From the IMG/VR virus record IMGVR_UViG_3300010354_008846, positions 1 to 24,080 of that record: 24,080 nucleotides of DNA; one strand, written 5' to 3'. A program made the position numbers and the translations under genes. Positions 2,397 to 22,026 of this stretch are shown piece by piece. The notes under the pieces were generated by a model that did not search any database, was not told the origin of the DNA, and was given only the letters and a program-made list of their open reading frames with translations. The stretch's first letter is position 1. Each line of letters starts with the position of its first letter. This DNA is from a virus.

Positions 2397-2419
2397 TAAA
2401 ATAAAAGAGAAAAAAACAA

Positions 2420-2427
2420 TATAAATA
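2420..2427 (+). promoter_or_regulatory. T4-type late promoter box for gp8
   Basis: This is an exact TATAAATA octamer, the T4 late promoter consensus. Five bases separate it from the gp8 ATG at 2433. Since the T4 octamer covers about -13 to -6, the predicted transcription start is the A of the ATG. No Shine-Dalgarno sequence is visible in the space. Confidence 0.7.
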
Positions 2428-2432
2428 ACAAT

Positions 2433-3932: not shown

Positions 3933-3935
3933 ATT
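3928..3935 (+). promoter_or_regulatory. T4-type late promoter box for the DUF4815 gene
   Basis: TATAAATT differs from TATAAATA by one base. It overlaps the gp8 stop codon (3930-3932) and ends 6 bp before the ATG at 3942, the same spacing as at other starts in the window. Confidence 0.55.
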
Positions 3936-3941
3936 AACATA

Positions 3942-6900
3942 ATGCCAATTACAACATTTAATTCTGATTATTATGATGACTACACCTTAAATAGTGTAGG
4001 CGAAAAAAATTATGTAAGGATTCTTTTCAAACCGGGGTACAGTGTACAAGTTCGCGAATTGAATCAAATGCAAAGTATGTTGCAGGACCAAATACACCGG
4101 TTAGGCAGCACAATATACAATCAGGATAAAGCTATATTAGGATGTAAAGTTAATTTTAATCCCGTAATAGACAGAGTAGACTTTAAACTTACTCTTGATC
4201 CAAATTTATCAAAGGCCACAATTTTAGAAAATATCACTACAATCACTTCAGGCAATAATCTTATTGCCACTGTAATTGGTTACAAAGATATTGAAGAAGA
4301 AGTTGGCGCGCCTGACCATGTGAGGTTTTATGTAAAATATACAAACAGTGGAAATGACGGTCGCAAAGCATTTCAATATCCAACTGATACTGTATTTAAT
4401 TTTGCGTTAAATACAGAAACTGCTCCAGAGTTGGCAGGCTATAGTATATCTGGCACACTCACTGACGACACTGCTATTGGTTGGGGGTCTGGCATATTTA
4501 CTGATGAAGGTATATTTTATGTAAATGGTTCATTTGTAGCATTGCCAAAACAAACATTATTTGTTGACCATCTTGCAGAGTCAGAAGTTTTAGTTGGAGT
4601 CGTTGCATATCGCGTCTATGAAAATTTAATTACATATGCCGACGACGAAACATTAGTTGACAATAGCGCAGGTACTCTAAACTATACTGCGCCTGGTGCT
4701 GATCGTTATCAAATTGACTTGGAATTAGAGTGGTTAACCACAGATAATTGGAATAATCGCGATAATACAATACAATATATCAAGATTGGAGAAATACAAA
4801 ACTCTAGGTTGTCTGAAATGGTTAATCCAAACAGCCAAGAAAGTTTGTACAAACAAATTGATAAGACTATGGCTCTTCGAACTCAAGAGGAGTCAGGCAA
4901 CTATACCGTTAATCCATTTCCTCTAACATTAAAAGATCTTTATAATGGCCAAAAATTACCTGGTCGACTAATGGTGGCCGGCAATAGATATAAAATTGAA
5001 GCTCTTGGTACAGATTATACAACTGATCAATGGATAGCAGTAGGTGTCACAGATGCGCTTTCAGTAAAGATAGGCACAGAATTTATTGCAACTGGTGCAT
5101 TGCCATCAACCTTGATTGGAGCACTTGTCACTGAAGTGGCCTTTATAAATGGATTGTATACTTGGGATGACCTAGACCTTATCCCTGGATATGAACAATA
5201 CTACACAATCAGTTCAACCGATGCCGATAAATTAACTGCAATTTCTAAGGCAAAAGAATCTTTTGTAACAACTATAGACAAAAGTGCAGGATATGTAGAT
5301 GGCTATCGAGTACATCTAAACAAGCCTCTCAACATTGAAACTAAAAAGGCTCGCACTCGTGAAACTTTTCCGCTGTCAATGAGTTTGACATACGGCAACT
5401 ATTTTATTGGTACTGCAAGTGGCGCATCCTTTGAGTTGCCTCCTATTAATCTTTTAAGCGCCGACTATGAGTTACGAAATGCAATAGACGGAGGTGGAAC
5501 TGCAATTGGAACGTGTAAAGTAAAATCTTTTGAAGCCGCTGGAGGCAGCGAGTTTATTCTCTATATTTATGGCGAAACAATAACTAATTTACAAGACGTC
5601 AAATCGATAAAACGTGGTAATTTTGTTTTTAATATCAATACAAATTCTGTATTAAACGAACGTACAAAAAAATCGCTTGTGTATGCATTGCCATATGAGG
5701 AATGCGACCCAACTACTGGCGTGACGATACCATTTATTTCTGCATACAGACATTATAGCGGTTCAACAACTGGAAATACCTTATCACTAAATGTTGGTGG
5801 AGAATTAAATGAAACATATGATGATGCTTCATCATTTATTATCTATGTTGGGGGAACTCGTATTACTTCTGGAATAAGTATAGCAGGTGATTCGAAGGGT
5901 GTGACTATAACCCATAATCAAGGAGCCGGCAAAGCATATTCTGTTATAGCGGCAGTTACCACAAACACACCTGCGACAAAAAAGGTATTAACTATAGCTA
6001 CAGTCACATTACAGGCCGCCTCTGCAGTTGCAGGAGTGTTTACGCTGTCGACCACTGATGCAGTTGAAATTGTATCTATAATAAATGACAAATCTGGAGT
6101 CAAGTATGATGTAACTTCATCATTTATACTTTCGGACACCGGCCTAAGAGATACTCACTATACAAATAGTAAAATAAAGTATACCGGTAGCGGTACATTA
6201 AGTGGATCATTTTTAATTAAATATCGCTATTTAGCTCGTTCTGGAGGTGGAGAGTTGCGTTACTATACTGCAAATTCATATTCATCTGTGGCACGGCAAT
6301 ATATCCCATTGTCTGGAAATGTAAGCCTACGTGACACACTCGATTTTAGGCCCGATTTGTTAAATGGAACTTCAAAAAGTGGTATATTACCAAATCCAAA
6401 TTCGACATTCAGAGCAAACGCTCAATATTATTTGCCACGAATAGATAAGGTTGTAGTCAATTCTAACAATAATTTTACTGTCGTTGAAGGCACTCCTTCA
6501 TTGCAACCGAAGGAACCGGCAACTCCGGCAAATTCTATGTGTTTGTACATTTTAAATGTTCCTGCATACACGGCAGATGCTTCAAAAATACAGACTCGAT
6601 ATATCGATAATCGTAGATATACAATGCGTGATATCGCAAAACTCGATAAACGAATCGGCAACCTGGAATATTATACCTCGTTGTCATTATTAGAAAGATC
6701 TGCCACAGAAAAATCCATCTTTGATGTTGACGGTGCAGAGAGAAATAAAAACGGAATTATAGTAGACAGTTTCTTAAATCATAGCATTGGCGACAGCGCT
6801 AACAAATCTCATGCATGTAGTTTAGATCGCAAAAAGGGAATATTGCGTCCTGCATTTTTAACTCATTTAATTGATTTAGACTATAACGAAGCCTCTGTTG

Positions 6901-9458: not shown

Positions 9459-9460
9459 TT

Positions 9461-9682
9461 ATGAGAGCAAAGGTACTTGAAAACGCCGATTATGAACGCG
9501 ATTTGACTACTGGCGCGCTTGTGAATGTTAATAGAGCAGCACACTATGCCTCTTTACAAAAACGACTGCACCAAAAAGCAATGGCGGCAGAAAAAATAAA
9601 GATGCAACATGACATAGAAGAACTAAAAGAAACTTGTAAAAGTTTGCAGTCTCAGCTTGATGAGTTGAAAAAAACATTATAA
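9461..9682 (+). CDS. Small coiled-coil protein between tail genes
   Basis: This is a 73-residue protein with no recognised family. It begins MRAKVLENADYERDLTTGAL. The C-terminal half is strongly helical with heptad-like spacing (IKMQHDIEELKETCKSLQSQ), which predicts a coiled coil. It has no late promoter box of its own and starts 2 bp after the preceding stop, so it is probably translated by coupling. Its position between a baseplate protein and a fiber suggests a small structural, connector or assembly protein, but this is inference. The short length leaves some doubt, though the tight fit between neighbours supports it as a real gene. Confidence 0.7.
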   Translation: MRAKVLENADYERDLTTGALVNVNRAAHYASLQKRLHQKAMAAEKIKMQHDIEELKETCKSLQSQLDELKKTL

Positions 9683-9685
9683 ATA
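9678..9685 (+). promoter_or_regulatory. T4-type late promoter box for the first fiber gene
   Basis: This is an exact TATAAATA. It overlaps the stop of the small coiled-coil gene and ends 6 bp before the fiber ATG at 9692. The predicted transcription start is at 9691 or 9692. Confidence 0.7.
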
Positions 9686-9691
9686 CTCTAT

Positions 9692-12600
9692 ATGCCAATT
9701 TCAGATACTGACCAACACACTCCATTCATCAACATTGTTGCAGATGGAGTAACATCAATTGATACATTTAATACGTGGCGCAAAAAGACTAACGGTATTA
9801 TTAAAGTCATTAATGATGGTTTAATTACCCGCTATATTGCTGACCGTGCAATTACTCCTTCAAAACTATCGGAAGGCGGACCATATTGGGACCGTGATGG
9901 CACATTTAATACAAATGGTAATAACGCGCGTGTTGGCTTTGGCCGAGGAGATACAATAAACCTTTATATTGGTCATTCACGCAGTGCTGCCGGTGCGTCA
10001 TCACTTATTTTTCGTACTGCTGCTACTGGAGGAATTGGAACAGATACTGCATCTATCACTCGAAATATAGCTAGTTCTGATTCTGGACTGACCGGTGACT
10101 TAACAATATATAACAAGAGTTCACCAATTAAACTATCTGTTGACGTCTCACAAAAAATATTTTTTAACGTAAATGGTTCTGAAAGTGCAAACGTTTCTAG
10201 TACCGGTATAAATGTTGTAAACACTGTAACTGCAAAAAATGTTAGTATAAGTGATGCAATTCCATATTATCGACTACAGTCTTCAACTTCTGGCGGACTA
10301 ACATGGAATATAGAAAGTAATAGTGGCCGTCTGTATGTGCGTTCAGGTACAACATCTGCAGCAGTTGATTCTGTTGCACCAATTCAGGTATTAAACAACA
10401 ATGCTGTTGCGCTCGGCGGCAAATTAAATGATGCAATTGTATCAACGGACGAATTAACTGTTTTTGGAGATTCACTATTTACCGGCGAAATACGCAACAA
10501 TACATCTATTACGGCTGGTTATAAAATTAGTTCAGGCGAAACAAGTGTGAAAGTTGGTGCCGAACGTACTGCAGATGGCATCAGTTCATTACAACTCTAC
10601 TCTACAAAATATGGAGTAGGAAATACCACCCCAAGTGCTAATATCACTCGTGCCGCTGGTGTTAATTCAAACTTAACGATAAAAAATACCGGTTCAGGCC
10701 AGACTGTGTTTGAACAGGATGACAATGGTAGTTATTCATTTAAAATAGGCACTTCCGAGCGTCTAAACATTGATAAAGCAGGAAAAATTACAATTGCCGG
10801 CACATTAAAAGTAGTTGGTGGGTTTACCACTGATACACCAATTACTGGTGCTAATATATCAAACAGATTGATTAATGCATTCGGAGACGGCTATGTCGAA
10901 TCAATAAACATAACTGACGGAGCTCAAAATACTACTACAGTCACGCTAACTGTACAGGATCATGGTTTCCAAATAGCAGAGACCGTGACAATCTCAGGAT
11001 TGAAGAAAGGTGACGGCACCGCTACTCCTTATGCAAATGGAGAGAAAACAATAACAGCCGTTACGACTGATACTTTTTCTTATACTGTTGGAACACCCGC
11101 ACCTGCTCCATTTTCTTTTGACGTCTCTACGGCGACACTGTCGTCAATAGCAGCTAACCAGTCATACTTTAAACTAGGAACTGCAGTACCTGAAGATTAT
11201 TATCTAATTGTCGGAGGCAACCGTTCTGCCGCAGACCGAACTGGAATTGTATTACGCAGTCAAAGTGGAAACTGGAAACCTACGGCAAACAGTGACCAGT
11301 ATGACACATCTGGTCTACACATATACAAGGGATCTGGAATTAATGGCAATGCCGGTATAGAAAATTCTGGTACGGGTACATTTACACTCGCAAACAAAGA
11401 GTCTGGAAATATTATATTTAGTACAGCAGTTAGCGGTACAACCTACCAACGTCTGACAATTAACGGCGCTACAGGCGCAGTCGGCATTGGAACCGCCCCA
11501 ACAACTGCGGCATTAACTGTCAGTGGAAACATTGGCGCAACTCGCTTTGTTGGACCACTTACTGGAGCAGTGACAGGAAAAGCAGACACTGCCGGAACTG
11601 CCGATACTTCACTTGTGCTTGAAACTCCAAACATCAAGGTTGATGCTGACTCTATAAAATCTAATGGCACACTTAAATTAAACACCACTAAGAAGGATGG
11701 AACGTCTGCCGCCACCGCATTAAACACTGAAGTTTATGACGGTAAGTCTGGCGTGATTGCAACCTTTAAAGGCGACACAAAGGCATTAGAAACTCAAGGT
11801 GATGTCATTATTGCATCAACTAAAAAGTTGACAATACAAGAAACTAGTACCTCCAACAGACGCGCGCGTGCACAAATTGGAAGTTGGTATATAGGTCAAA
11901 GTAGTCTGTCTAATGGTACATCTGATTTTTATATACACAATGGTGACGACGCATCAATCACTACACCACGACTAAAAATTGACGGTTCTACTGGTGTAAT
12001 AACTGGTCGTATTACAAATGCAGATGTTGCAGTTAATTTATCATCAACATTGCCGATAGATAAAGGAGGAACTGGAGCAACTACCGCAGCGGCTGCGCTG
12101 TCTGCTCTTGGAGGTGCGCCGTTAGTCAGTCCATCATTTACTGGCACACCAACTGCGCCAGAACCTAGTACAAATAGTAATGGCACTCAAATTGCGACTA
12201 CAGCGTTTGTTATTTCAAAAGTAACTGCCGAAGTTGCAGCGGCAAACGCCCCAACAAAAACTGGTGGTGGCGCAACTGGGAATTGGGGCATTAGTATAAC
12301 TGGAACCGCTACCACTGCCTCTACTGTTGTCAGCGGGGCAATTGTACCGACATCACTGACTACTGCAGCCAGCACATGGAATTTTAAAGATAAAGTTGGT
12401 GTTAACGTTGCATCGCCATCATTTCAATTTGAAGTTACAGACACGTTAGCTTCTCGCAGTGTTGGAATTGGCCAAAGCGAAATAAAATTTCGCGGTGATG
12501 GTTTAACACACTGGTCAATATATGGTTCTAGAACAAGCAAGGATTATTTTGATATTCAAAACACAAGTAACGCAGTTACCCCAGGCGTAGACGGTACAAG

Positions 12601-13771
12601 TTGTCTTAGAATAACTAAAGACGGAAATATCGGTATTGGTGTGCCTACGCCGACTCGTAAACTTGAAGTAAATGGAAGTGTAGTTGCAACCTCGTTTATT
12701 GGAAATGTATCTGGAAATGTATCTGGTTCTTCTGGGTCGTGTACCGGCAACGCTGCGACAGTGACAAATGGTGTTTATACTAACGCCGCAAATGTTATTA
12801 CAGGTTCTCTGGGATTTGGTTCACATGGAACCAACACAATAAGCAACGGCACCGGCGATCAAGCAACGCTATCAACATACAATCTTGCGATAAAAAGCCA
12901 TTGGGGAATTGGATTTCCATCATATGATAATGTAAATAGAATTGTTCTTGATACAAGAACTGGTGGAGCGCAATTTTCTGGAACAATTACTGCCCCTACT
13001 TTTTCTGGAAATGCTACTACCGTTACTAATGGAGTGTATACCTCTGGCGATCAAGTTATTAACGGTACTAAAACATTTAGTAATGTAATCAGATTAGCTG
13101 ATGCCGGAATAATGTTTAATTCTGATGGTGCACAAGACACTGGTTTCACCTGGGCAAGTGATGGTATCTTTAATGTACGTTGCAACGCTGTAACTGTTGG
13201 AACATTTAGAAGCACCGGTTGGAACGGACCTGTTGTAGGTAACGTGACAGGTAACGTCACCGGTTCTTCAGGATCATGTACTGGTAATGCTGCAACAGCT
13301 ACTAACGCGACTAACGCGACCAATGCCGGTTATGCGACCACCGCCGGTTATGCAAATGATTACCCAAATAGATATTTTATTCCACAATTTCAAGTATGGA
13401 CTGTAAATGAAACTGGTTATTGGGGAAATTCGTTTTATACAAATGGTAATAATGCATATATAGATATTAGCATAAACAATTTAGCTGCAACTGGATTTTT
13501 ATATAATGGTAGTAACTATGCAATATTTGTTGAACTTAAGGGCTATGACGGAGTTCTTTTTGCCCAGGCTGGTTGGTATCCGTCAGGAAATACGACTGGA
13601 CGAGTTAGGTTAATTTCTAATCTAAATTTATCTGATAGAATCGCATCTCCATGGAGAACTGGTTTTCATATACAAATAAGAGACCATCATAGCGGTAAAA
13701 TGGGCGCTATTCATGGAGTAGAGTTTAATTTTACTGGTGGAAATTCTAAAGAGAACTATTATTCATTTTAA
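9692..13771 (+). CDS. Long tail fiber protein (1359 aa)
   Basis: This is probably a trimeric fiber or receptor-binding protein. The N-terminal part (about residues 1-75, with DGVTSIDTFNTWRKKTNGII) likely attaches to the baseplate. The long Gly/Ser/Thr/Asn-rich shaft contains the fiber module DKGGTGATTAAAALSALGG followed by SPSFTGTPTAPEPSTNSNG and ATTAFV (about residues 788-840). This arrangement is typical of phage tail fibers. Two copies of a GNV[ST]GNV[ST]GSSGSCTGNA element follow near residues 1003 and 1182. The last 135 residues or so (from YPNRYFIPQFQVWTVNETGY) form a distinct, Trp/Tyr/Asn-rich globular domain, the best candidate for the receptor-binding tip. I see no S74-type self-cleaving chaperone signature. 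The coding DNA becomes visibly more AT-rich over this tip, as in the island that follows. Confidence 0.85.
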   Translation: MPISDTDQHTPFINIVADGVTSIDTFNTWRKKTNGIIKVINDGLITRYIADRAITPSKLSEGGPYWDRDGTFNTNGNNARVGFGRGDTINLYIGHSRSAAGASSLIFRTAATGGIGTDTASITRNIASSDSGLTGDLTIYNKSSPIKLSVDVSQKIFFNVNGSESANVSSTGINVVNTVTAKNVSISDAIPYYRLQSSTSGGLTWNIESNSGRLYVRSGTTSAAVDSVAPIQVLNNNAVALGGKLNDAIVSTDELTVFGDSLFTGEIRNNTSITAGYKISSGETSVKVGAERTADGISSLQLYSTKYGVGNTTPSANITRAAGVNSNLTIKNTGSGQTVFEQDDNGSYSFKIGTSERLNIDKAGKITIAGTLKVVGGFTTDTPITGANISNRLINAFGDGYVESINITDGAQNTTTVTLTVQDHGFQIAETVTISGLKKGDGTATPYANGEKTITAVTTDTFSYTVGTPAPAPFSFDVSTATLSSIAANQSYFKLGTAVPEDYYLIVGGNRSAADRTGIVLRSQSGNWKPTANSDQYDTSGLHIYKGSGINGNAGIENSGTGTFTLANKESGNIIFSTAVSGTTYQRLTINGATGAVGIGTAPTTAALTVSGNIGATRFVGPLTGAVTGKADTAGTADTSLVLETPNIKVDADSIKSNGTLKLNTTKKDGTSAATALNTEVYDGKSGVIATFKGDTKALETQGDVIIASTKKLTIQETSTSNRRARAQIGSWYIGQSSLSNGTSDFYIHNGDDASITTPRLKIDGSTGVITGRITNADVAVNLSSTLPIDKGGTGATTAAAALSALGGAPLVSPSFTGTPTAPEPSTNSNGTQIATTAFVISKVTAEVAAANAPTKTGGGATGNWGISITGTATTASTVVSGAIVPTSLTTAASTWNFKDKVGVNVASPSFQFEVTDTLASRSVGIGQSEIKFRGDGLTHWSIYGSRTSKDYFDIQNTSNAVTPGVDGTSCLRITKDGNIGIGVPTPTRKLEVNGSVVATSFIGNVSGNVSGSSGSCTGNAATVTNGVYTNAANVITGSLGFGSHGTNTISNGTGDQATLSTYNLAIKSHWGIGFPSYDNVNRIVLDTRTGGAQFSGTITAPTFSGNATTVTNGVYTSGDQVINGTKTFSNVIRLADAGIMFNSDGAQDTGFTWASDGIFNVRCNAVTVGTFRSTGWNGPVVGNVTGNVTGSSGSCTGNAATATNATNATNAGYATTAGYANDYPNRYFIPQFQVWTVNETGYWGNSFYTNGNNAYIDISINNLAATGFLYNGSNYAIFVELKGYDGVLFAQAGWYPSGNTTGRVRLISNLNLSDRIASPWRTGFHIQIRDHHSGKMGAIHGVEFNFTGGNSKENYYSF
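12248..12303 (+). repeat. Fiber module DNA repeat, copy 1
   Basis: This 56 bp stretch is identical at 50 of 56 positions, by eye, to 22424-22479 in the second fiber gene. It encodes APTKTGGGATGNWGISITG here and APTKTGGGATGTWAIGITG there. Both copies follow a KGGTGA module and an AT[TV]A[FY]V element, so the whole domain order is shared. Confidence 0.85.
12701..12760 (+). repeat. Fiber tail repeat GNVSGNVSGSSGSCTGNAAT, copy 1
   Basis: Sixty bases encode 20 residues that match the copy at 13238-13297 at 18 of 20 positions (two Ser to Thr changes). Many third codon positions differ, so the protein repeat is conserved more strongly than the DNA. Confidence 0.8.
13238..13350 (+). repeat. Fiber tail repeat copy 2 and short tandem repeats
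   Basis: Bases 13238-13297 encode GNVTGNVTGSSGSCTGNAAT, the second copy of the element at 12701-12760. They are followed by short tandem units encoding TNATNATNAGYATTAGYA. The stretch directly precedes the unique C-terminal tip domain of the fiber, and short repeats at such a site could help exchange of tips by recombination. Confidence 0.75.
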
Positions 13772-13783: not shown

Positions 13784-14368
13784 ATGAACTTTATAGAAAT
13801 AATAGATGAAACTGGCGTTATATTATATCGTGGTGAAAATATAAAATATGATAAGGAAAACTATATATTTACTGATATTTTAACTAATTCTGAAATAAAT
13901 ATTCCAAAAACTAGTGTAGTATATGCTAATACTATTACACATTATGGTTATGAAAATACTTTATCTTTTTTAAACAGAATTAAAGAAGACAATAGTTTAT
14001 CATTGTCTGATAAACGAGAACTATTTAAATCGCAAAATTTAATTAATGACTTTTATCAAAAGAAAATTATTAAATTATTAAATATAAAAAATTATAAAAC
14101 ACTTGATAATATTCCAAACGAAACTTTACAATTATCATTTAAAGCTTTAGTTGATGTACATTTTGAAAAAGCACTTAAATCATTAACGCAATTAATTGAA
14201 AATGAAAATGACGTGGATGTTATTGCAGAAATTAATTCGACTAAAGACGATTTAGAAAATAACGTTAAAGATTTTATCGAAAACGAAATTTCGACAATAA
14301 CTAAGGATAATATTGTACAAAAATGGCCAACTCTATTAAATCCTTCTCCATTCCAGCAAATATTGTAA
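13784..14368 (+). CDS. Unknown protein directly after the fiber gene
   Basis: This is a 194-residue protein that I do not recognise. The first 60 residues or so look beta-rich (MNFIEIIDETGVILYRGENI). The rest is mainly helical and charged, with LNRIKEDNSLSLSDKREL and a long acidic helical stretch after residue 130. There is no signal peptide or membrane segment. It starts 12 bp after the fiber stop, where other phages often place fiber assembly chaperones, so such a role is possible but rests on position only. Its 3' end overlaps the next gene by 46 bp, which suggests the two are expressed together. It is clearly more AT-rich than the fiber gene before it and marks the left edge of the island. 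Confidence 0.7.
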   Translation: MNFIEIIDETGVILYRGENIKYDKENYIFTDILTNSEINIPKTSVVYANTITHYGYENTLSFLNRIKEDNSLSLSDKRELFKSQNLINDFYQKKIIKLLNIKNYKTLDNIPNETLQLSFKALVDVHFEKALKSLTQLIENENDVDVIAEINSTKDDLENNVKDFIENEISTITKDNIVQKWPTLLNPSPFQQIL

Positions 14369-14922
14369 TTATAGCAAATTCTGAAAATATTTTAGATAAA
14401 AAATTTGGTGATAAAATCAATAATTTTGATACTGTAATTAGAGTTGGTAAATATAATATTAAAGGATTTGAGGAATATATTGGAAATAGGACAGATATTG
14501 TGTCAACAATATATTATAATATTAGAGAATGTGATAAAGATAAAAAATTGATATTAGTAAATCATTATAATTTAAACGATACAACTAGAATAATACCAAA
14601 TATCGATTTAAATTTAAATAATATTATTTACACACATACTAGAGATGATGATAAAGAAATAACAAATTTCTTTAAAAATAATTTGACAAGTAATATAGAA
14701 ATACCAAATTGTAATTTTTCTCTCGGATTTAGAACTATATTTTTAGTATTAAAATTATTTTCAGCATCAAAAATTTATATTCATGGATTTGATTTTTTTA
14801 AAACTGGCTATTATTTTAATCCAAATCACAATAGAAATATAGGAAATAAACACCCGTATTTATATGAAAGATTATGTGTAAAGAAATTAATACATTCTGA
14901 TAAACTTTATGAGTTGTCGTAA
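14323..14922 (+). CDS. Sialyltransferase-like (GT29-like) glycosyltransferase
   Basis: This 199-residue protein has the order of motifs seen in GT29 enzymes, which transfer a sugar from a CMP-linked donor. Near residues 14-40, IVIIANSENILDKKFG and INNFDTVIRV resemble the L-motif pattern, followed by GFEEYIGNRTDIVST (48-62). Residues 129-157, with NFSLGF and SASKIYIHGFDFF, resemble the S-motif region. H177 and E182 (HPYLYE) fit the HxxxxE motif, with YYFNPNHN just before it. The protein is short compared with eukaryotic enzymes and has no membrane anchor. The donor is unknown. Because the island also encodes CMP-Kdo synthetase, a Kdo-like ulosonic acid is a reasonable candidate. It overlaps the genes on both sides (46 and 14 bp). 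There is no other Met in the protein, so ATG 14323 is the only ATG start. Confidence 0.7.
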   Translation: MANSIKSFSIPANIVIIANSENILDKKFGDKINNFDTVIRVGKYNIKGFEEYIGNRTDIVSTIYYNIRECDKDKKLILVNHYNLNDTTRIIPNIDLNLNNIIYTHTRDDDKEITNFFKNNLTSNIEIPNCNFSLGFRTIFLVLKLFSASKIYIHGFDFFKTGYYFNPNHNRNIGNKHPYLYERLCVKKLIHSDKLYELS

Positions 14923-15793
14923 TATTATTTTCTGTAAACCAACTGGTTTAAATTCTAATTTAGTTAACCTTTTAGTGTGTAATGATTATTGTGTTAAAAA
15001 TAACTACAATTTAATTTTTTTTATAAAAGAAAAACAATTAGAAATTGCTAAACAATGTAATACCATTGCTCAATTTATTGTTGTTAATCCTAAATATCTC
15101 GATTTTTCTTGTGGTTTTAATTATAGAAAATTATCACTTTTAGAATTTTCACTGCGTCTTAAAAGTTTAATTAAAAAATATTATATAGAGACTCTATCTT
15201 TTAAAGATACTTATTTTCATAGTGGATATAATCAAAATCTTGATGATATTTCTTCTCAGTATCATAATGTTCTTCTATATAAAATATATAAAAGTGAATT
15301 AAAAAATATTAGTAAAACCCAATTACGACTAAAAGATAATAGTAAGATTAAATTTAAAAAGTACTATTCTAACATATTATCTTTTAATTTAGTAAATACT
15401 GGAGGAGACCAAAAACGTGTATATGATTTTTGGGATTATGTTATTAATAAAAAAATTATGAAACACCCGCGATCACAATTATTTTTTGTATGTGGGGATA
15501 AAATAATGTTAGAAAGATTTACTAAAAAATATTCCAGCATTAATTCTATAAATGATAAAGAATATGAAATAAAGTATTCTAGTACATTTGTCTCTACAAT
15601 TCATAGAGGCGCAGAAGATGATATTTTTTATGATATAGTAAATTGTAGTTTTACAAATTTTCAATCATTACACCTTTTACGAAATGAATTTCCAGAAATA
15701 ACTAATATTTTTAAAGACGTTAGCTTTGTCAATCGAACAGAACATTTTGATTTTTTAGTAGAATATTTTAAAGACAATATCAAGATACTTTAA
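14909..15793 (+). CDS. Unknown protein, possible glycosyltransferase
   Basis: This 294-residue protein is not recognised with confidence. It has an alpha/beta look: an N-terminal strand-like RNIIFCKPTGLNSNLVNLLV, a central SFNLVNTGGDQKRVYDFWDY, and a C-terminal part with LFFVCGDKIMLERFTKKYSS followed by STIHRGAEDDIFYDIVN. A strand, then GD, then a helix and a later acidic 'DD' patch is reminiscent of GT-B-type transferases such as fucosyltransferase-like proteins, but I cannot name a catalytic residue. The later island protein at 17222-18214 has a similar 'strand-SGD-helix' element. It starts inside the GT29-like gene (14 bp overlap) and its end overlaps the convergent oxygenase gene by 14 bp. 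It is very AT-rich. Confidence 0.65.
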   Translation: MSCRNIIFCKPTGLNSNLVNLLVCNDYCVKNNYNLIFFIKEKQLEIAKQCNTIAQFIVVNPKYLDFSCGFNYRKLSLLEFSLRLKSLIKKYYIETLSFKDTYFHSGYNQNLDDISSQYHNVLLYKIYKSELKNISKTQLRLKDNSKIKFKKYYSNILSFNLVNTGGDQKRVYDFWDYVINKKIMKHPRSQLFFVCGDKIMLERFTKKYSSINSINDKEYEIKYSSTFVSTIHRGAEDDIFYDIVNCSFTNFQSLHLLRNEFPEITNIFKDVSFVNRTEHFDFLVEYFKDNIKIL

Positions 15794-16367
15794 ATTCAGT
15801 TTCAAAGGTACAATAGTTAATCATAATTGCCTTTCTGCTATTTTTTATCTTGATTGGTTCTAATCCATGCCAAGTATCATGGCTTGGATAAAAATAGAAA
15901 CCAGTGTTATGACGATAAGGAACTATCTTTGCCAATTTTTGTTCTGAATCATAAATTGATGTTCCTATATCTTCGCTTTCGTCGGTATTATTTAAATATA
16001 TCATCATCGACAATATCTTTTCATGTATATCAACGTGTGGTTTCAGCCACGACTTTTCTCTATCTTCGATAAATTCGACTCTAAGATAATTTCCTCGTAT
16101 ATTTCTTCCCGATTCTTTTTCAAAATGATTTACTACGTCATCAGATAAAAAATATTCTACTATAGATTTTATAGCATCGTTTGTGTTGATGTTATCAACA
16201 TTTGCGAAAAATCTATTTTTATTTGATGCTCTTTCTCCGTGTAATTCTGCAGAAAATTTGAATAGATCTATACTAAGAATACCAGACAATTCACTTTCAC
16301 TAAAGACATCTTTAAATGTGTAGTGATTGAATGGTTCAGAATTTAATATAATATCATTTAGTTTCAT
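15780..16367 (-). CDS. 2-oxoglutarate/Fe(II)-dependent oxygenase
   Basis: This 195-residue protein would hydroxylate a protein, sugar or small molecule using O2 and 2-oxoglutarate. The iron ligands are visible as H111-x-D113 (LKPHVDIHEK) and H167 (DTWHGLEP). R178 (NSRKAIMINY) would bind the 2-oxoglutarate carboxylate. The double-stranded beta-helix core (LSMMIYLN, then NTGFYFYPSHDTWHGLEPIK) is complete. I chose the start at 16367 (MKLNDIILNSEP) over an in-frame ATG 141 bp upstream. The upstream choice would run into the divergent gene, and a late promoter-like box lies exactly 5 bp before the chosen ATG. The substrate is not clear. Candidates are a virion protein side chain or a sugar made by the island. 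It is convergent with, and overlaps by 14 bp, the preceding plus-strand gene. Confidence 0.85.
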   Translation of the reverse strand: MKLNDIILNSEPFNHYTFKDVFSESELSGILSIDLFKFSAELHGERASNKNRFFANVDNINTNDAIKSIVEYFLSDDVVNHFEKESGRNIRGNYLRVEFIEDREKSWLKPHVDIHEKILSMMIYLNNTDESEDIGTSIYDSEQKLAKIVPYRHNTGFYFYPSHDTWHGLEPIKIKNSRKAIMINYCTFETEFKVS

Positions 16368-16372
16368 ATAAG

Positions 16373-16380
16373 TATATATA
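16373..16380. promoter_or_regulatory. Shared bidirectional late promoter-like box (TATATATA)
   Basis: The two start codons of the divergent oxygenase and radical SAM genes are only 19 bp apart (16367 and 16387). In the middle lies TATATATA, a self-complementary octamer with one mismatch to TATAAATA on either strand. It is 5 bp from the minus-strand ATG and 6 bp from the plus-strand ATG, so one box could serve both directions. A partly overlapping TATAAGTA (16367-16374) is an alternative for the plus direction but has poorer spacing. Confidence 0.5.
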
Positions 16381-16386
16381 CACATT

Positions 16387-17244
16387 ATGATTGCAAATGA
16401 TAAAGGAGATGTTATAAAAATACGAAAAAGCCAAAGCGAAAACGTTACTATTAATGATGAAATGGATGCTCTGCAGTCCATTACTATAAATCCCACTGAA
16501 TTATGCAATAGAACATGTCATTTTTGTCCTCGACATGACCCCAAAATTTACCCAAATCAAAATTTGCATATGTCTGAAGAGACCGCAAAACGATTGGCTT
16601 CAGAACTAAAAAGCATTGATTATAAGAATAAAGTTATATGGTCAGGAAATGGAGAACCTCTTTTAAATAAAAATATATTAAATTTAATTAAAATTGTTAA
16701 TGATGATAATCCGCAATTGCGTGTTCATGAAGTAAATACCAATGGAGATAAGTTAAATCAATCAATGATTGATAATTTATATTTTGTTGGGATAAATCAT
16801 ATTATGGTTAGCGTCTATGATGGAGAAGAAACCTTTGAAAAATTTACTAAATTATTTGAAAATTACGACTCTAATCGATATACATTAAGAAAAAGTTATT
16901 ATGATAATTTAGATCTTACAGATTTTACCAATAGAGGTGGTACTACGCAATTAAATTCACATGTTAAATTTAATGGGAATAAATGTTATTTGCCATTCTA
17001 TAAATTATTTATGGATTGGAATGGTGATATATTATTGTGTTGCGAAGATTGGAGAAAAATAACCAAAGATATTTTAAAATTCAATATCAATACACATAGT
17101 ATAAAAGAGATATGGTTATCCGAAGTTTTAAATAAATACAGAACTCGATTAAAGGAAGGAGATAGAAGTCTTTCTCCCTGTAACCGTTGTAATATACATG
17201 GTGAAAAAGTCGGCGAAGAATATGTCAAAATTTTCAAATTATAA
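16387..17244 (+). CDS. Radical SAM/SPASM enzyme 1
   Basis: This 285-residue protein carries the radical SAM cluster motif C40-x3-C44-x2-C47 (ELCNRTCHFCPRHD). It would bind a 4Fe-4S cluster and S-adenosylmethionine and generate a 5'-deoxyadenosyl radical. WSGNGEPLLN (85-94) stands for the 'GGEP' motif that contacts SAM. A C-terminal SPASM-like region has Cys at 200, 218, 219, 265 and 268 (CYLPF, LLCCEDW, CNRCNIHG), suggesting one or more auxiliary clusters. SPASM enzymes modify peptides, proteins or sugars, but the substrate here is unknown. It is a paralogue of the second radical SAM gene at 18856-19731. The ATG has a box 6 bp upstream, and the 3' end overlaps the next gene by 23 bp. Confidence 0.9.
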   Translation: MIANDKGDVIKIRKSQSENVTINDEMDALQSITINPTELCNRTCHFCPRHDPKIYPNQNLHMSEETAKRLASELKSIDYKNKVIWSGNGEPLLNKNILNLIKIVNDDNPQLRVHEVNTNGDKLNQSMIDNLYFVGINHIMVSVYDGEETFEKFTKLFENYDSNRYTLRKSYYDNLDLTDFTNRGGTTQLNSHVKFNGNKCYLPFYKLFMDWNGDILLCCEDWRKITKDILKFNINTHSIKEIWLSEVLNKYRTRLKEGDRSLSPCNRCNIHGEKVGEEYVKIFKL

Positions 17245-18214
17245 CATATATTTACAAACTATTCAACATCCCAATACTTATTCGTGTAGCTGCACGTTGG
17301 GCGCTTTGTTGTATATGTCATGTTATTTAAATAATTTAAATATATGTTATGTATATAACGAAATTTTTGAATTATTTAATAGCAATTGTCATTATATTTT
17401 GCATAATATACATAATAATGTAAAATTTAAAACATATTTAATTTTGCATAAAAATAAATCATATCCACATAAGGAGAATAAAATTCAATATAATAGTTTT
17501 GTAAAAGATGTTATTGGCATATCAACATATAATGACTTAGCGTATAATGAATATGACGAAAAATATTATAATATAATATTTGAAACTACGATTAAAAAAA
17601 TTTTTAAAAATACATATTATCAAAAAAATAAAATAGAATATAGTAATGTTAATAATATTGAATCCGATAAAAAACTAATTTTATCTAAATCAATTGCGTT
17701 AGATCATAATAAAATAATATCTTTTTCAAATGATCGTTATTTTATATGTTTACCAACATACAAATTAGAAAATAATTTAGATATTAAAATTTATGATATT
17801 ATTATCCAATATATCATACAAAATACAAAATACAAAAATTTAATATTAATTAGCGGAGACAATGATTATAAACAATATTTCTATGATAAGTATGGAATAA
17901 TAACTACAGAACGATATCCACAAATAAATTACGAAATAAAAAATACAACTAAAAAAAAGGGTAATGATGTACTTTTTAGGAGTAAGAGCAAAAGTAATTT
18001 AGTATCTCAGATGACTGATTATCTGTATATTCAAGAATCTAATGCAAGTTATATAGATTTTTTTGGATTAATGAATACATTACGACCTGAATTAAGTAAA
18101 ATATTACCACAGAATAGCTTTACAGATTTTTTATTAAAGGATCAAATACAATGTATAGATATGATAGGCATATTACTTAAAACTAAAAAATTTATTCAGA
18201 ATGGAAAAGATTAA
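17222..18214 (+). CDS. Unknown, extremely AT-rich protein; possible glycosyltransferase
   Basis: This is a 330-residue protein from ATG 17222 (MSKFSNYNIYLQTIQHPNTY). An in-frame ATG at 17198 would lengthen the overlap with the upstream gene and is less likely. I recognise no family. It is rich in Ile, Lys, Asn and Tyr, matching the extreme AT content: one 60-base line, 17581-17640, has only 7 G or C. A cluster of Cys near the N-terminus (SCSCTLGALLYMSCYL) and a strand-helix element NLILISGDNDYKQYFYDKYG near residue 210 are the clearest features. The latter recalls GT-B transferases and the protein at 14909-15793. It overlaps both neighbours (23 and 14 bp), so it is probably co-translated between the radical SAM enzyme and the GT8-like transferase. 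Confidence 0.65.
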   Translation: MSKFSNYNIYLQTIQHPNTYSCSCTLGALLYMSCYLNNLNICYVYNEIFELFNSNCHYILHNIHNNVKFKTYLILHKNKSYPHKENKIQYNSFVKDVIGISTYNDLAYNEYDEKYYNIIFETTIKKIFKNTYYQKNKIEYSNVNNIESDKKLILSKSIALDHNKIISFSNDRYFICLPTYKLENNLDIKIYDIIIQYIIQNTKYKNLILISGDNDYKQYFYDKYGIITTERYPQINYEIKNTTKKKGNDVLFRSKSKSNLVSQMTDYLYIQESNASYIDFFGLMNTLRPELSKILPQNSFTDFLLKDQIQCIDMIGILLKTKKFIQNGKD

Positions 18215-18875
18215 TATTTTTATTGGATTGGATGAACCTCATAAAATTGCATATGATGTGTGCAAATATAGTATTGAGACTAATAATAAAAAATATAAAC
18301 TCAAAATACAACCAATAAATTATAATACTGTAACAGAATATAATCGAAAAAAAGATGAATTTGAAAGTACACAATTTTCATTTGCTCGTTTTTTTGCACC
18401 ATATCTATGTGAATATAAAGGTATTAGTATTTTCTGTGACGGTGATTTTTTATTTTTAAATTCTATAGATGAGTTAATTGATTTATACGATTCTGAATAT
18501 GCAGTTATGTGCTGTAAACATGATTATGTTCCTGCCAATCAAATTAAAATGGGAAATAAAAAACAATCAATATTTCCAAAGAAAAATTGGAGTAGTTTAA
18601 TGATTTTTAACAACGAACATCCAAAAATTAAAACACTAAACCCATTGACTTTAAATAATCAATCTGGCGGATTTTTACATCAATTTAAGTATCTTGATGA
18701 TGTCGAGATTGGTAGTTTACCGTTACAATGGAATTGGTTAGTAGATTATTATAGTGAACCAAAAGACGGAACTCCAAAAGCTTTGCATTTTACTGATGGA
18801 GGTCCATGGTTAGAACAATATAAAAAATGCGAATATTCAAATTTGTGGTTCGACTTTAAGAATAAAATTTCTTAA
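18201..18875 (+). CDS. GT8-like (GT-A fold) glycosyltransferase
   Basis: This is a 224-residue protein. It starts with a strand typical of nucleotide-sugar binding (KINIFIGLDEPHKIAYDVCK). It has the DxD metal/nucleotide-sugar motif D80-G81-D82 in ISIFCDGDFLFLNSIDEL, preceded by SFARFFAPYL, as in GT8-type enzymes. A later NWSSLMIFNNEHP, the acceptor-side LQWNWLVDYY and the C-terminal H196 in ALHFTDGGPW (compare the metal-binding His of GT8 enzymes) complete the pattern. It should transfer a hexose or similar sugar from a nucleotide donor in the cytoplasm. The specific sugar and acceptor are unknown. It overlaps the preceding gene by 14 bp and the convergent radical SAM gene by 20 bp. Confidence 0.75.
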   Translation: MEKINIFIGLDEPHKIAYDVCKYSIETNNKKYKLKIQPINYNTVTEYNRKKDEFESTQFSFARFFAPYLCEYKGISIFCDGDFLFLNSIDELIDLYDSEYAVMCCKHDYVPANQIKMGNKKQSIFPKKNWSSLMIFNNEHPKIKTLNPLTLNNQSGGFLHQFKYLDDVEIGSLPLQWNWLVDYYSEPKDGTPKALHFTDGGPWLEQYKKCEYSNLWFDFKNKIS

Positions 18876-19731
18876 ATGCATTAAAGCTACTTTCTCCATA
18901 TACTTGACCATGGACTTCGCAATTTTGACATGGGTGTAATCCGCAACGACCGTATTGTATATGATGTTTTCTAACTTTTGCAACCTCTTCTCCCAACCAA
19001 ATTTCTTTTAATGAAGTTTCATTGATATTTCCATATTTGATGTCTTTGGTCCAATTGTGGGTGCACAACAACACATCTCCGTTCCAGTCTATAAATGTAG
19101 AATTGAATGGCATAAAGCATGCGCGAGTAGGTATTTCATTATCATTTAATTTCATCATTCCTACTCTATTGCTAATGCCTGACATTCCATATTCCTGTTC
19201 TGGACCATACCAGAAACGTTTTATAACATATTTTTCTGAACTTATTCCACATTTTTCAAATAATTTTAAAAAGTGTTCTTCCTGTTCTGGTCCGTCATAC
19301 AAACTCATTTTTAAAAGGTCTAAGCCATTTTTAAATAGCCCAATTAACGTTTTTTCTGTCAATAGATCACCATTTGTCGTTATTGTTAGATTTTTATTAT
19401 GCGGCAAATGCAGTTTGAATGATGATATAATTTCAAATATATCTTTATGCATAAGTGGTTCACTAAATCCAGCTAATACAATTTGATTTGTATAGTTAAA
19501 TTCCGATAGGTCTCTTGCAAGTTTTAAATATGTTTCTTTTGACATATTTAATTTTCTATTTGGATATAGAGATGAATCATGTCGTGGACAAAAAACGCAT
19601 TTGCGAGTACACAATTCAGTAACATTAATATCAACTATTTGCAATGCCGATAATATATCATCGTTTATTTCAAATGACGAAAATATCTTTTTTCTTAACT
19701 CTATAAACTCGCTCGTTGGAACTTTTGACAT
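18856..19731 (-). CDS. Radical SAM/SPASM enzyme 2
   Basis: This 291-residue protein has the cluster motif C41-x3-C45-x2-C48 (ELCTRKCVFCPRHD), LAGFSEPLMH (86-95) in the 'GGEP' position, and TITTNGD further on. The SPASM-like Cys are 205 (CFMPF), 223 (LLCTHNW), 263, 268 and 271 (CGLHPCQNCEVHG). It shares long motifs with the radical SAM protein at 16387-17244: CPRHD, YPN, (I/V)DWNGD-like and LKEIWL-like elements, and the 'VHG' end. The two are therefore paralogues, but too different to be a recent copy. I start it at 19731 (MSKVPTSEF), not at 19758, because a TATAGATA box lies exactly 5 bp before this ATG and the longer form would enter the divergent aminotransferase gene. The substrate is unknown. 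Confidence 0.9.
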   Translation of the reverse strand: MSKVPTSEFIELRKKIFSSFEINDDILSALQIVDINVTELCTRKCVFCPRHDSSLYPNRKLNMSKETYLKLARDLSEFNYTNQIVLAGFSEPLMHKDIFEIISSFKLHLPHNKNLTITTNGDLLTEKTLIGLFKNGLDLLKMSLYDGPEQEEHFLKLFEKCGISSEKYVIKRFWYGPEQEYGMSGISNRVGMMKLNDNEIPTRACFMPFNSTFIDWNGDVLLCTHNWTKDIKYGNINETSLKEIWLGEEVAKVRKHHIQYGRCGLHPCQNCEVHGQVYGESSFNAFKKFYS

Positions 19732-19738
19732 ATACATA
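19731..19738 (+). promoter_or_regulatory. Late promoter-like box for the aminotransferase gene
   Basis: TATACATA (one mismatch, at position 5 of TATAAATA) ends 5 bp before the plus-strand ATG at 19744. It starts on the last base of the divergent gene's start codon. Confidence 0.5.
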
Positions 19739-19744
19739 TCTATA
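19737..19744 (-). promoter_or_regulatory. Late promoter-like box for radical SAM gene 2
   Basis: On the minus strand this reads TATAGATA (one mismatch, again at position 5) and ends 5 bp before the minus-strand ATG at 19731. It overlaps the opposing box at 19731-19738 by 2 bp, so two opposed promoters fit in a 12 bp gap. Confidence 0.5.
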
Positions 19745-20658
19745 TGCCAAAAAGACACAAAATAATACCAAATGAATCTAATTTTAATTTAATTAGAAAT
19801 GAGTGTCTTTTTCCTTCGATCGCTAATGCTATAATTAGTGGAGTAAATGTTGGTGTGCATGATATTATGCGGTATCATAGCTCATATGAAATAGAAGCAT
19901 TATTATCAAATAAAATAACAACAGATGGATTAATTTTTTGTAATTTTGGTTCAGAATCCGTTATTAAACAGATTGTAGAATGTTTATCGCAATATAGTAA
20001 ACGTTGGGTAATACCTCAACCGACATTTGAATTGACTAATTTTTATTGTGAGCATTATGGTTGCACAATAGAAAAACCTGAATACACATACACTACACAA
20101 TTTTCTATAGATCTATCTCATGTACAAAATACCTTTGAAAAAATATTGTATATAGTTTCTCCACATAATCCAACTGGAGTAAAATTTTTTAAAGAAGAGT
20201 TAGAAGTATTATGCAAAAAATATATGTATGTCATAGTTGATGAAGCGTATATTTCTCCAGATGACCCAATATTAAACTCATTCAATAATTTAATATTTGT
20301 TAGATCTTTTAGTAAAATGGGAGGATTGACTGGGCTAAGATTTGGATTTGGAATATGTTTTGATGAAAAATTATTTTCAGAATTTAATAAAATTAGACCA
20401 ATGTATTTAAATACAATTAGTTTAAAATACGTAGAATATATTTTAAATAATAATATTACTACACTTATAAAAAATAAAATTGACGACGAAATTATTGCAC
20501 TTAAAAAATCTCATGATATAGTTTGTAATGCTGGAAACTTTGCATTGTTACGCAACACTCAAAGTTATAACGGTTATGGACTTAAACCATATAAATTTTC
20601 TAATCAATTATTTTATAGAATGACTTTATGCGAATCTAACTATTTCTTTAACAAATAG
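19744..20658 (+). CDS. PLP-dependent aminotransferase, class I/II, HisC-like
   Basis: This 304-residue protein has the fold type I motifs: PHNPTG (140-145, with the Asn that holds the PLP ring), VDEAY (165-169, the Asp that pairs with the pyridine nitrogen), and RSFSKMGGLTGLRFGFG (187-203), with K191 as the Schiff-base lysine and R199 in the phosphate-binding position. FGSES (68-72) would contact the cofactor phosphate. The best family match I can name is histidinol-phosphate aminotransferase-like. Those enzymes are about 350 residues, so this one is short, mainly in the small C-terminal domain. It may act on an amino acid phosphate or a sugar-derived keto group. Its 3' end overlaps kdsB by 11 bp in convergent orientation, which hints at a link with the CMP-ulosonic acid route but does not prove it. 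Confidence 0.85.
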   Translation: MPKRHKIIPNESNFNLIRNECLFPSIANAIISGVNVGVHDIMRYHSSYEIEALLSNKITTDGLIFCNFGSESVIKQIVECLSQYSKRWVIPQPTFELTNFYCEHYGCTIEKPEYTYTTQFSIDLSHVQNTFEKILYIVSPHNPTGVKFFKEELEVLCKKYMYVIVDEAYISPDDPILNSFNNLIFVRSFSKMGGLTGLRFGFGICFDEKLFSEFNKIRPMYLNTISLKYVEYILNNNITTLIKNKIDDEIIALKKSHDIVCNAGNFALLRNTQSYNGYGLKPYKFSNQLFYRMTLCESNYFFNK

Positions 20659-21379
20659 TATCATATAAAATATTAGCAGTTTTTAAATCATCGGCGGTGT
20701 CAACACTTATATGAGAACCTTTGCAAGGTATCATCTTAACTAAAATATTGTTTTCTAAAAATCTATACATTTCTACTGACTCTGAGATTTCTAAATGTTT
20801 ACGTTTCAAAAGATTAAATTTTTTTAACGCAGCTGTTCGAAATGCATATAGACCTAACTGTTTATAATAGCATTTAGACTTATTATGAGTCGGTAACCTA
20901 CAGTATTGTAGTGCATAATCGTCTTGATCTAATTCAACTTTAACTACGTTACGATTTGAAAAATCGTTTGACTCTAAATTAGCGTATCCATTGACTATAT
21001 CTATTTTTTGATTGTTCAATAGACAGTTTCCAATGCTATTGATTGAGTTTATATCAATAAATGGTTCGTCTCCCTGAACGTTTATAAAAATATCAGAATC
21101 TAAATAATTAGCACACTCTGCTACTCGATCTGTTCCAGTTTCATGATGTGATGATGTTAATAGATAATTTAAATTTAACTCTTTACATTTTTCTACTATT
21201 CTAATATCATCTGTTGCAACATAAACATTTTTAGAAAATATTGATTTTTTAGCTTGCTGATATACATGCCATAACATGGGCATTTTTCCTATTAACATTA
21301 ATGACTTTCCTGGTAGTCGAGTAGAACCATATCTACATGGTATAATTACAGATACTTTTGTATGTTTGGCACTAAACAT
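20648..21379 (-). CDS. kdsB: 3-deoxy-manno-octulosonate cytidylyltransferase (CMP-Kdo synthetase)
   Basis: This 243-residue protein is close to the usual KdsB length (about 250). It catalyses CTP + Kdo to CMP-Kdo + pyrophosphate in the cytoplasm. Diagnostic motifs are all present: VIIPCRYGSTRLPGKSL (nucleotide-binding loop with R16, S19, R21 and K25), YVATDD, HETGTDRVAE, FINVQGDEPFI, KQLGLYAFR, ESVEMYRFLENN and ISVDTADDL. The enzyme looks intact and active. It is translated in the same direction as the HAD gene upstream (34 bp overlap), with no promoter box of its own, so the two probably form a unit. A phage kdsB implies supply of CMP-Kdo or a CMP-activated Kdo derivative during infection. 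The GT29-like protein in the same island belongs to a class that uses CMP-sugars. Confidence 0.95.
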   Translation of the reverse strand: MFSAKHTKVSVIIPCRYGSTRLPGKSLMLIGKMPMLWHVYQQAKKSIFSKNVYVATDDIRIVEKCKELNLNYLLTSSHHETGTDRVAECANYLDSDIFINVQGDEPFIDINSINSIGNCLLNNQKIDIVNGYANLESNDFSNRNVVKVELDQDDYALQYCRLPTHNKSKCYYKQLGLYAFRTAALKKFNLLKRKHLEISESVEMYRFLENNILVKMIPCKGSHISVDTADDLKTANILYDTIC

Positions 21380-21963
21380 TCTATCGATTCTATAACAATA
21401 TTGTCAGTATTTACTTCTCCATATCCCCATTTAGCATGAAAAAATTTTATTTCGGCCTTAGTTGCAGCCAAACAATCTACATGCATATCTCCAATATATA
21501 CTACTTTATCTTTACTTATACCAGAAGCCTCTATAATTCGTAAAATATGATCGGGATGCGGTTTTCCTTTCAAATCTTTACATGGAGTTTCAATATAATC
21601 AATTAGATGGTCTATAGGTTGTATTACATCACTTACTCTATCTTGATCTTTCGACGTGACTATACCTAGTGTATAACCTAATTGAGTTAGATGTGTCAAA
21701 GCATCTATTATTCCAGCATAAAATGTGATTGATTTTTTATTGTAAAATGATTTTTCTTTATATAATTTTTCTATATTATTGTGATTTTTAGTTATTTTTA
21801 ATTGTACTAAAATATCTTTAAATGGAATTCCTATATATTTAAAATACTCATTAAATGATATTTCGAGATTAAAAACTCGGTTAACACTTTGCCATGCATA
21901 TTGCATATTATCTTTTGAATCTATTATGACGCCATCCAAATCGAATAACACTAAACCTTTCAT
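21346..21963 (-). CDS. HAD-superfamily phosphatase (phosphoglycolate phosphatase-like)
   Basis: This 205-residue protein has all four HAD motifs: LFDLDGVIIDS (nucleophile D8 and general acid D10), TSKDQD (motif II Ser), KGKPHPDHI (motif III Lys) and VYIGDMHVDCLAA (motif IV acids). The helical stretch after motif I (residues about 15-80) is a C1-type cap, as in phosphoglycolate and beta-phosphoglucomutase-like enzymes. This differs from KdsC, the normal Kdo-8-phosphate phosphatase, which lacks that cap. It could still remove phosphate from a sugar intermediate before CMP activation by KdsB, with which it overlaps. I start at 21963 (MKGLVLFDLDG), because an ATG 24 bp upstream lies before the promoter-like box and motif I normally sits within the first 10 residues. 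Confidence 0.85.
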   Translation of the reverse strand: MKGLVLFDLDGVIIDSKDNMQYAWQSVNRVFNLEISFNEYFKYIGIPFKDILVQLKITKNHNNIEKLYKEKSFYNKKSITFYAGIIDALTHLTQLGYTLGIVTSKDQDRVSDVIQPIDHLIDYIETPCKDLKGKPHPDHILRIIEASGISKDKVVYIGDMHVDCLAATKAEIKFFHAKWGYGEVNTDNIVIESIECLVPNIQKYL

Positions 21964-22012: not shown

Positions 22013-22026
22013 TATAAATATAAATA
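22013..22026 (+). promoter_or_regulatory. Double T4-type late promoter box for the second fiber gene
   Basis: Two exact TATAAATA octamers overlap by 2 bp (22013-22020 and 22019-22026). The second ends 7 bp before the ATG at 22034. With the first box the mRNA would have a leader of about 8 nt, and with the second about 2 nt. Confidence 0.7.

Follow-up and report, generated by a model that had tools for sequence, protein, structure and literature searches.

Phage sugar genes that lie beside fiber genes have usually been described singly and assigned to changes in the host O-antigen. The closest described systems include the fiber-region islands of pelagimyophages, which carry GT8 glycosyltransferases (GTs) and radical SAM cassettes (PMC7029224). 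We analyzed the IMG/VR virus record IMGVR_UViG_3300010354_008846, a sequence of 24,080 bases that stands alone and that we refer to at its full length as the window. Eleven close-packed genes, named A to K, lie between the end of one fiber gene (13,771) and the start of another (22,034). A first-pass annotation had read them as a single route that makes a sugar like 3-deoxy-D-manno-octulosonic acid (Kdo) and attaches it to the fibers or to the host envelope. Gene A fell within its range and drew no comment, but it is central to the cassette as we describe it. We give about an even chance to the block being a late-expressed, phage-encoded protein-glycosylation cassette whose acceptor is the C-terminal tag of protein A.

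Profile scans identified gp8, DUF4815 and gp36-like fiber genes in the window, which mark it as T4-like, and megablast of the window against phage records returned no near record. The named genes are intact open frames at the coordinates first assigned to them. GC content per gene is 20–31% within the A–K block versus 37–44% in the neighboring structural genes.

Relatives of the cassette were sought in 2.9 million viral contigs, and ten further non-redundant relatives were retrieved. The core cassette A + B + C + D + E + G is represented by 11 non-redundant contigs, one of which ends before A. Across the layouts, A, B, C, D and E are universal, and G is missing only where a contig ends too early; these genes form a conserved unit. 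Since other phages share both the genes and their order, the block is more than a chance assembly. The idea of a coherent glycan cassette therefore stands: the genes are not scattered but are shared as a unit by 11 viral contigs.

Protein A (13784–14368, plus strand) is a small carrier-like protein of 194 residues encoded by the first gene of the cassette. Its homologs are approximately 194–241 residues long, and identity between subfamilies falls to 21–27%. Near the C-terminus all of them carry the decapeptide WPTLLNPSPF (codons at 14324–14353, plus strand), followed by 4–14 variable residues. Among ten non-redundant homologs, all 10 motif positions are invariant, compared with 9 of 184 positions elsewhere. 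Synonymous codon variation is found at nine of the ten motif positions, which places selection on the peptide and not on a DNA signal. Most A sequences were first retrieved by the exact motif, and this bias was removed by searching with A trimmed of its motif. The trimmed search recovered the same 12 contigs as the motif-only search and no others. All of the 12 with enough downstream sequence carry the cassette. In addition, the window, L005 and L009 (the same contig as L037) were retrieved without use of the motif and nonetheless contain it. In 50,697 phage records, tblastn found no match to A, B or the motif peptide.

The cassette occupies two genomic sites, one flanked by a gp36-like fiber gene (window, L005, L041) and the other by a gene for a 298-residue protein (L030–L039), and A comes first at both. 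Because A travels with the cassette across the two sites, it is part of the cassette, with its C-terminus as the leading candidate for the site of modification. We infer that the tag is the acceptor. An AlphaFold2 (AF2) model of A has a pLDDT of 87.5. The N-terminal barrel has a weak likeness to Sm/Hfq proteins (Z approximately 5.5–6.3; Foldseek and VIA), which we did not use. The idea that A, by its WPT-type C-terminus, is a phage tail assembly chaperone was set aside, as no Pfam match supports it.

Beyond the core, the cassette may contain F or a second copy of C (C'), H, I, and the pair J-K. The order fiber-A-B-C-D-E-F-G-H is common to the window, L005 and L041, the last of which ends in F. 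In L004, at a contig end, F-G-H adjoin a homolog of the downstream fiber gene of the window. The order A-B-C-D-X-E-F-G-H is found in L034, L036 and L039, where G is reversed relative to the window, and in L037, where G is forward. L030 and L032 have the order A-I-C-C'-D-E-B-G, and L033 reads A-I-J-K-radical SAM-C-D fragment-radical SAM-C'-D-E-B-G. The fragment in L033 (12530–12691) derives from a second D and lies near duplicated C and radical SAM genes, which suggests a past duplication within the cassette. Gene X, of approximately 180 codons, lies between D and E (L034:12711-13265, L036:12744-13289, L037:10626-11168 and L039:12735-13289). In the copies scanned it matches nothing in Pfam or PHROGs, and it is possibly phosphatase-like. 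Downstream of the cassette in L005 there are a sulfotransferase-like gene (3–422) and leucine-rich-repeat fiber-like genes (433–7249).

Pfam, NCBIfam and PHROGs scans returned matches for most families in the block. The families named by the first-pass annotation (KdsB, GT29-like, GT8-like, aminotransferase, phosphatase, two radical SAM/SPASM enzymes and a 2-oxoglutarate (2OG) oxygenase) are borne out by Pfam or NCBIfam matches. Its two possible transferases correspond to C and F. The Pfam scan returned no match for C and no credible match for F. By hhalign the two proteins are relatives of one another (P 92, E 5e-7), and C is predicted to have a GT-B fold. The AF2 model of C (14909–15793, plus strand; pLDDT 85.6) falls in the NodZ/FUT8/POFUT2 fold group, with VIA Z scores of 12.6 for NodZ, 11.3 for FUT1, 10.2 for POFUT2 and 9.9 for FUT8. 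The best 25 VIA rows are fucosyltransferases throughout, although the fold group does not fix the donor. F (17222–18214, plus strand) is GT-B-like through its relation to C and is 52% identical to F of L005. A match of F to the NYN domain (E 0.034) was dropped.

B (14323–14922, plus strand) is a compact phage protein of approximately 190 residues that resembles the GT29 (sialyltransferase-fold) glycosyltransferases, with matches to PF00777 (E 7e-9) and, by profile, to ST3Gal1 (E 4.5e-6). Motifs L and S are kept, as is HxxxxE from motif VS, and N19, G29, R40, G54, S133, G135, H177 and E182 are invariant in 11 homologs. The true start of B is probably downstream of 14323, since the listed start falls inside the tag codons of A (14323–14368) and the homologs start later. 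Two PHROGs matches of B were too weak for use. G (18201–18875, plus strand) is GT8-like. Its match to PF01501 (E 1.9e-4) is under the Pfam cut-off, but it matches phrog_28018 at E 7e-48 and the DGD motif is invariant in homologs. G is 45% identical to homologs in cyanophage S-SCSM2R and pelagiphage Mosig.

D (15780–16367, minus strand) is a 2OG-Fe(II) oxygenase resembling prolyl 4-hydroxylase (P4H), with a PF13640 match at E 2.6e-7 and a weak profile match to a P4H-domain structure (E 2e-5). The residues H111-x-D113, H167 and R178 are invariant. Assignment as a Kdo 3-hydroxylase was rejected, since the Pfam scan gave no match to that family.

E (16387–17244, plus strand) and H (18856–19731, minus strand; 80–82% identical to its homologs in L004 and L005) are BtrN-like radical SAM enzymes, each matching PF04055 and PF13186. 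Their profile aligns with nearly the full length of BtrN at E 1e-31. BtrN is a cyclitol-alcohol dehydrogenase in which four cysteines ligate the auxiliary cluster (PMC9012708). Fourteen E/H proteins share an invariant CX3CX2C motif (C40, C44, C47) and a single four-cysteine auxiliary site (C200, C218, C265, C268), as in BtrN. From this likeness, E and H putatively oxidize an alcohol group of a sugar or cyclitol by two electrons. PADLOC matches to viperin (pVip) and to a CRISPR-associated 2OG protein reflect the shared domain core only, and these genes were not taken as defence genes.

The remaining three genes bear on the route to a cytidine monophosphate (CMP)-activated ulosonic acid. I (19744–20658, plus strand; PF00155 E 1.9e-22) is a HisC/CobD-like, pyridoxal phosphate-dependent aminotransferase in which the cofactor lysine of an SFSK motif and D166 are invariant. 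Its homologs adjoin A in L030, L032 and L033, the last being 59% identical to I of the window. J (20648–21379, minus strand) is a KdsB-like CMP-ulosonate synthetase that matches PF02348 (CTP_transf_3; E 1.6e-38), NCBIfam PRK05450.1-5 (229.9 bits against a cut-off of 193) and KdsB in the PDB (E 1.8e-32), and it is 48% identical to J of L033. J falls below the equivalog cut-offs (129 against 155 bits for TIGR00466, 165 against 281 for PRK05450.1-1). We therefore do not claim a strict KdsB, and the substrate may be a relative of Kdo. K (21346–21963, minus strand) is a HAD_2 phosphatase (PF13419 E 2e-34) that follows J in L033 as well. The best models for K are HAD_2 and PpaX/PGP-type, and no model for KdsC, a HAD-III enzyme without the class-I cap, is among the matches listed. 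The KdnA/KdnB-type pairing of a DegT aminotransferase with an iron alcohol dehydrogenase was not found either: I belongs to Aminotran_1_2, and no such dehydrogenase is present among the scanned genes.

In the window, I-J-K fills the interval from the start of H to the promoter region of the fiber gene, where L004 has only a short spacer. The three genes recur in L033 with order and strands unchanged. This clean absence together with the recurrence indicates that the CMP-sugar module is real but optional. Among the nine other A-bearing cassettes, J and K occur only in L033 and I in only three, which with the empty site in L004 places the KdsB, HAD and aminotransferase genes outside any obligatory route. 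A search of the viral contigs for KdsB by itself led to two unrelated contexts, L002 and L003.

Bacterial relatives of E and H were found at 18 loci (31–43% identity), surrounded by genes for methyltransferases, aminotransferases, cytidylyltransferases (CTP_transf_3) and epimerases. In Prochlorococcus AG-402-C09 (L058:8612-14172), a BtrN-like gene follows a class III aminotransferase-like gene and precedes a KdsB-like gene. Beyond it on the opposite strand are KdsC-, KdsA- and KdsD-like genes, labels given by reading the sequences and not by individual scans. This locus suggests that the cyanobacterium has a modified Kdo pathway. In Omnitrophota and Latescibacteria the E/H relative adjoins KdsB- or NeuA-like genes, and in phage contig L006 a homolog of B lies near a gene for a NeuA-like synthetase. 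For a plant GT29, RCKT1/MGP2, a CMP-Kdo transferase activity has been put forward (PMC11288761). Together with the recurrence of I-J-K in L033, the bacterial neighborhoods, the NeuA-like gene and the plant enzyme support the earlier idea of a CMP-ulosonate donor. What did not survive is a single obligatory route: by gene content, a CMP-ulosonate theme is supported but is not universal to the cassette.

The NeuA-like synthetase of L006 has a longer C-terminal part. This 210 kb contig also carries a large sugar-nucleotide cluster (696–13512) that includes transketolase halves and DegT-like, class III aminotransferase-like, GT29-like and SIS-like genes.

Elements resembling TATAAATA, with at most one mismatch, are located 10–16 bp before the ATG codons of A, D, E, H, I and K, and likewise before gp8, the DUF4815 gene and both fiber genes. 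Only 2.4% of the other ATGs of the block have such an element (p 8e-8). The six cassette genes are the heads of short runs on both strands; each of the others overlaps the gene upstream of it or directly adjoins that gene. Exact copies of TATAAATA at 2420–2427, 9678–9685 and 22013–22026 lie 13–15 bp before gp8 and both fiber genes, close to leaderless spacing. The 19 bp divergent D/E spacer (16368–16386) has late-promoter-like TATA elements on both strands. It and the divergent 12 bp H/I spacer (19732–19743) contain palindromic sequence of TATATA type that serves both strands. The match between the cassette elements and those of the virion genes suggests that the two sets are expressed together late. 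The element is clear in the window, whereas in cassettes further removed it is weaker or takes another form.

A fuller mechanism is offered tentatively, with somewhat less than an even chance: the WPTLLNPSPF-tagged carrier would receive a complex glycan through four phage GTs, BtrN-like tailoring, possibly prolyl hydroxylation and, in some phages, a phage-made CMP-amino-ulosonic acid. Within the main reading, D perhaps first hydroxylates one of the three prolines of the tag. The initiating enzyme, most likely C as a POFUT/NodZ-type GT-B protein, would place the first sugar on threonine, serine, asparagine or hydroxyproline of the tag, and F or the second C, G and B would extend the chain. E and H may convert a sugar hydroxyl to a ketone, which I, where present, could aminate. 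With J and K also present, the keto- or amino-ulosonic acid would be dephosphorylated and CMP-activated for transfer by B; in phages without J-K, B would draw on host CMP-Kdo or CMP-nonulosonate. Once it bears the glycan, A probably becomes part of the tail or fiber, and there it would shield or tune contact with the host.

Several points weigh against glycosylation of A. Glycan, acceptor and donor are here deduced from genes, the CMP-sugar donor of B follows from its family, and cassettes without KdsB depend on host donors. A has no recognized virion family or clear fold match in family scans, Foldseek or VIA. The motif contigs were retrieved by exact pattern, so divergent A homologs free of the cassette may be missed, and the invariant C-terminal peptide could equally be a binding or assembly tag. 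Furthermore, GT8 and radical SAM genes of marine T4-like phages, including those of the GT8-rich host-recognition islands of pelagimyophages, are usually read as modifying the host O-chain (PMC7029224). In line with that reading, the cassette might remodel host lipopolysaccharide or capsule to exclude superinfection. A would then be an accessory or a targeting protein and would use its C-terminus to bind an enzyme or the envelope. The bacterial E/H relatives do lie in surface-glycan and Kdo loci, and GT8 and Kdo genes are typical of lipopolysaccharide. However, remodeling leaves unexplained the invariant C-terminal decapeptide of a fast-diverging protein and its constant first position, and late-type elements common to the structural genes suit virion modification at least equally. 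We regard this alternative as unlikely, though more probable than the three below.

Improbable in our estimate is glycosylation of the flanking tail fibers with A as a fiber chaperone or adaptor, close to what the first-pass annotation proposed. The cassette lies between two fiber genes in the window and L005 and beside one in L041, but the cassettes of L030–L039 have no recognized fiber gene as neighbor, and the window and L005 share the cassette but have different downstream fibers. The fibers as acceptor find no direct support; A, unlike the fibers, moves with the cassette and is therefore the likelier acceptor. We assign a similarly small probability to A being the precursor of a ribosomally synthesized and post-translationally modified peptide (RiPP) or cofactor, comparable to mycofactocin, in which the radical SAM and 2OG enzymes would rebuild WPTLLNPSPF as the core before its glycosylation. 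The invariant peptide does occur alongside radical SAM/SPASM, 2OG oxygenase and GT genes, and D weakly matches the peptide 2OG maturase NF041706 (E 0.0018); no NCBIfam maturase model reaches its cut-off. Yet A is a folded protein of approximately 190–240 residues, E and H match a cyclitol-alcohol dehydrogenase with one four-cysteine auxiliary site, and the bacterial relatives adjoin sugar genes and not small peptides. Least probable of all, we consider, is that the motif is a mere docking tag for virion assembly amid an unrelated cargo island of sugar genes. Hypervariable phage regions do collect cargo, and the enzyme-substrate link between cassette and tag comes from reasoning, but A and the cassette co-occur perfectly at two genomic sites despite very divergent A sequences.

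Should the tag of A prove to be the acceptor, a bacterial virus would be seen to carry a portable glycotag defined by its sequence, and phage protein glycosylation would come to include ulosonic acids and the sugar chemistry of radical SAM enzymes. The conserved unit names its own likely acceptor as a ten-residue sequence, so the question of modification is directly testable by mass spectrometry.

The locus shares features with several known systems. Skp1-type eukaryotic glycosylation combines a P4H and several GTs at one proline-containing site of one protein and offers, purely by analogy, a possible working mode for the cassette. The Kdo8N route of Shewanella uses KdnA, KdnB and KdsB. There an ulosonic acid is oxidized, aminated and activated with CMP, in parallel to the scheme that E/H, I and J might follow, but the phage has no iron alcohol dehydrogenase and its aminotransferase is of class I/II, not DegT. 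In butirosin biosynthesis BtrN likewise acts with an aminotransferase. E and H match BtrN in cluster ligand count as well as in sequence, and oxidation followed by transamination would parallel E/H with I; however, the phage I is HisC/CobD-like, and the phage pathway goes together with GTs and, in two of the phages, with KdsB. The plant RCKT1/MGP2 is a GT29 proposed to act on CMP-Kdo and not CMP-sialic acid (PMC11288761), as B putatively would, but B is compact and phage-encoded. Synechococcus phage S-SCSM2R (L015:13815-21074) has KdsB, the G homolog and two 2OG oxygenases within approximately 7 kb. This run does not follow the order of the A cassette, includes KdsA and a glycine amidinotransferase, and belongs to the phage records in which neither A nor the motif was found; it is a separate Kdo-type phage island. 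The host recognition cluster of pelagimyophages and cyanomyophages is similarly a variable island of T4-like marine phages with fibers, GT8-type GTs and radical SAM cassettes, but the part of that report considered here gives a host O-chain reading and mentions neither a tagged carrier nor an A-B-C-D-E-G unit (PMC7029224). The first-pass claim that no such phage system had been described thus needs narrowing: GT8 and radical SAM fiber islands were known, and what that part of the report leaves unmentioned is the A cassette and its tag. The tag-directed glycosylation of a viral protein that we favor would be of a kind not described in the literature searched.

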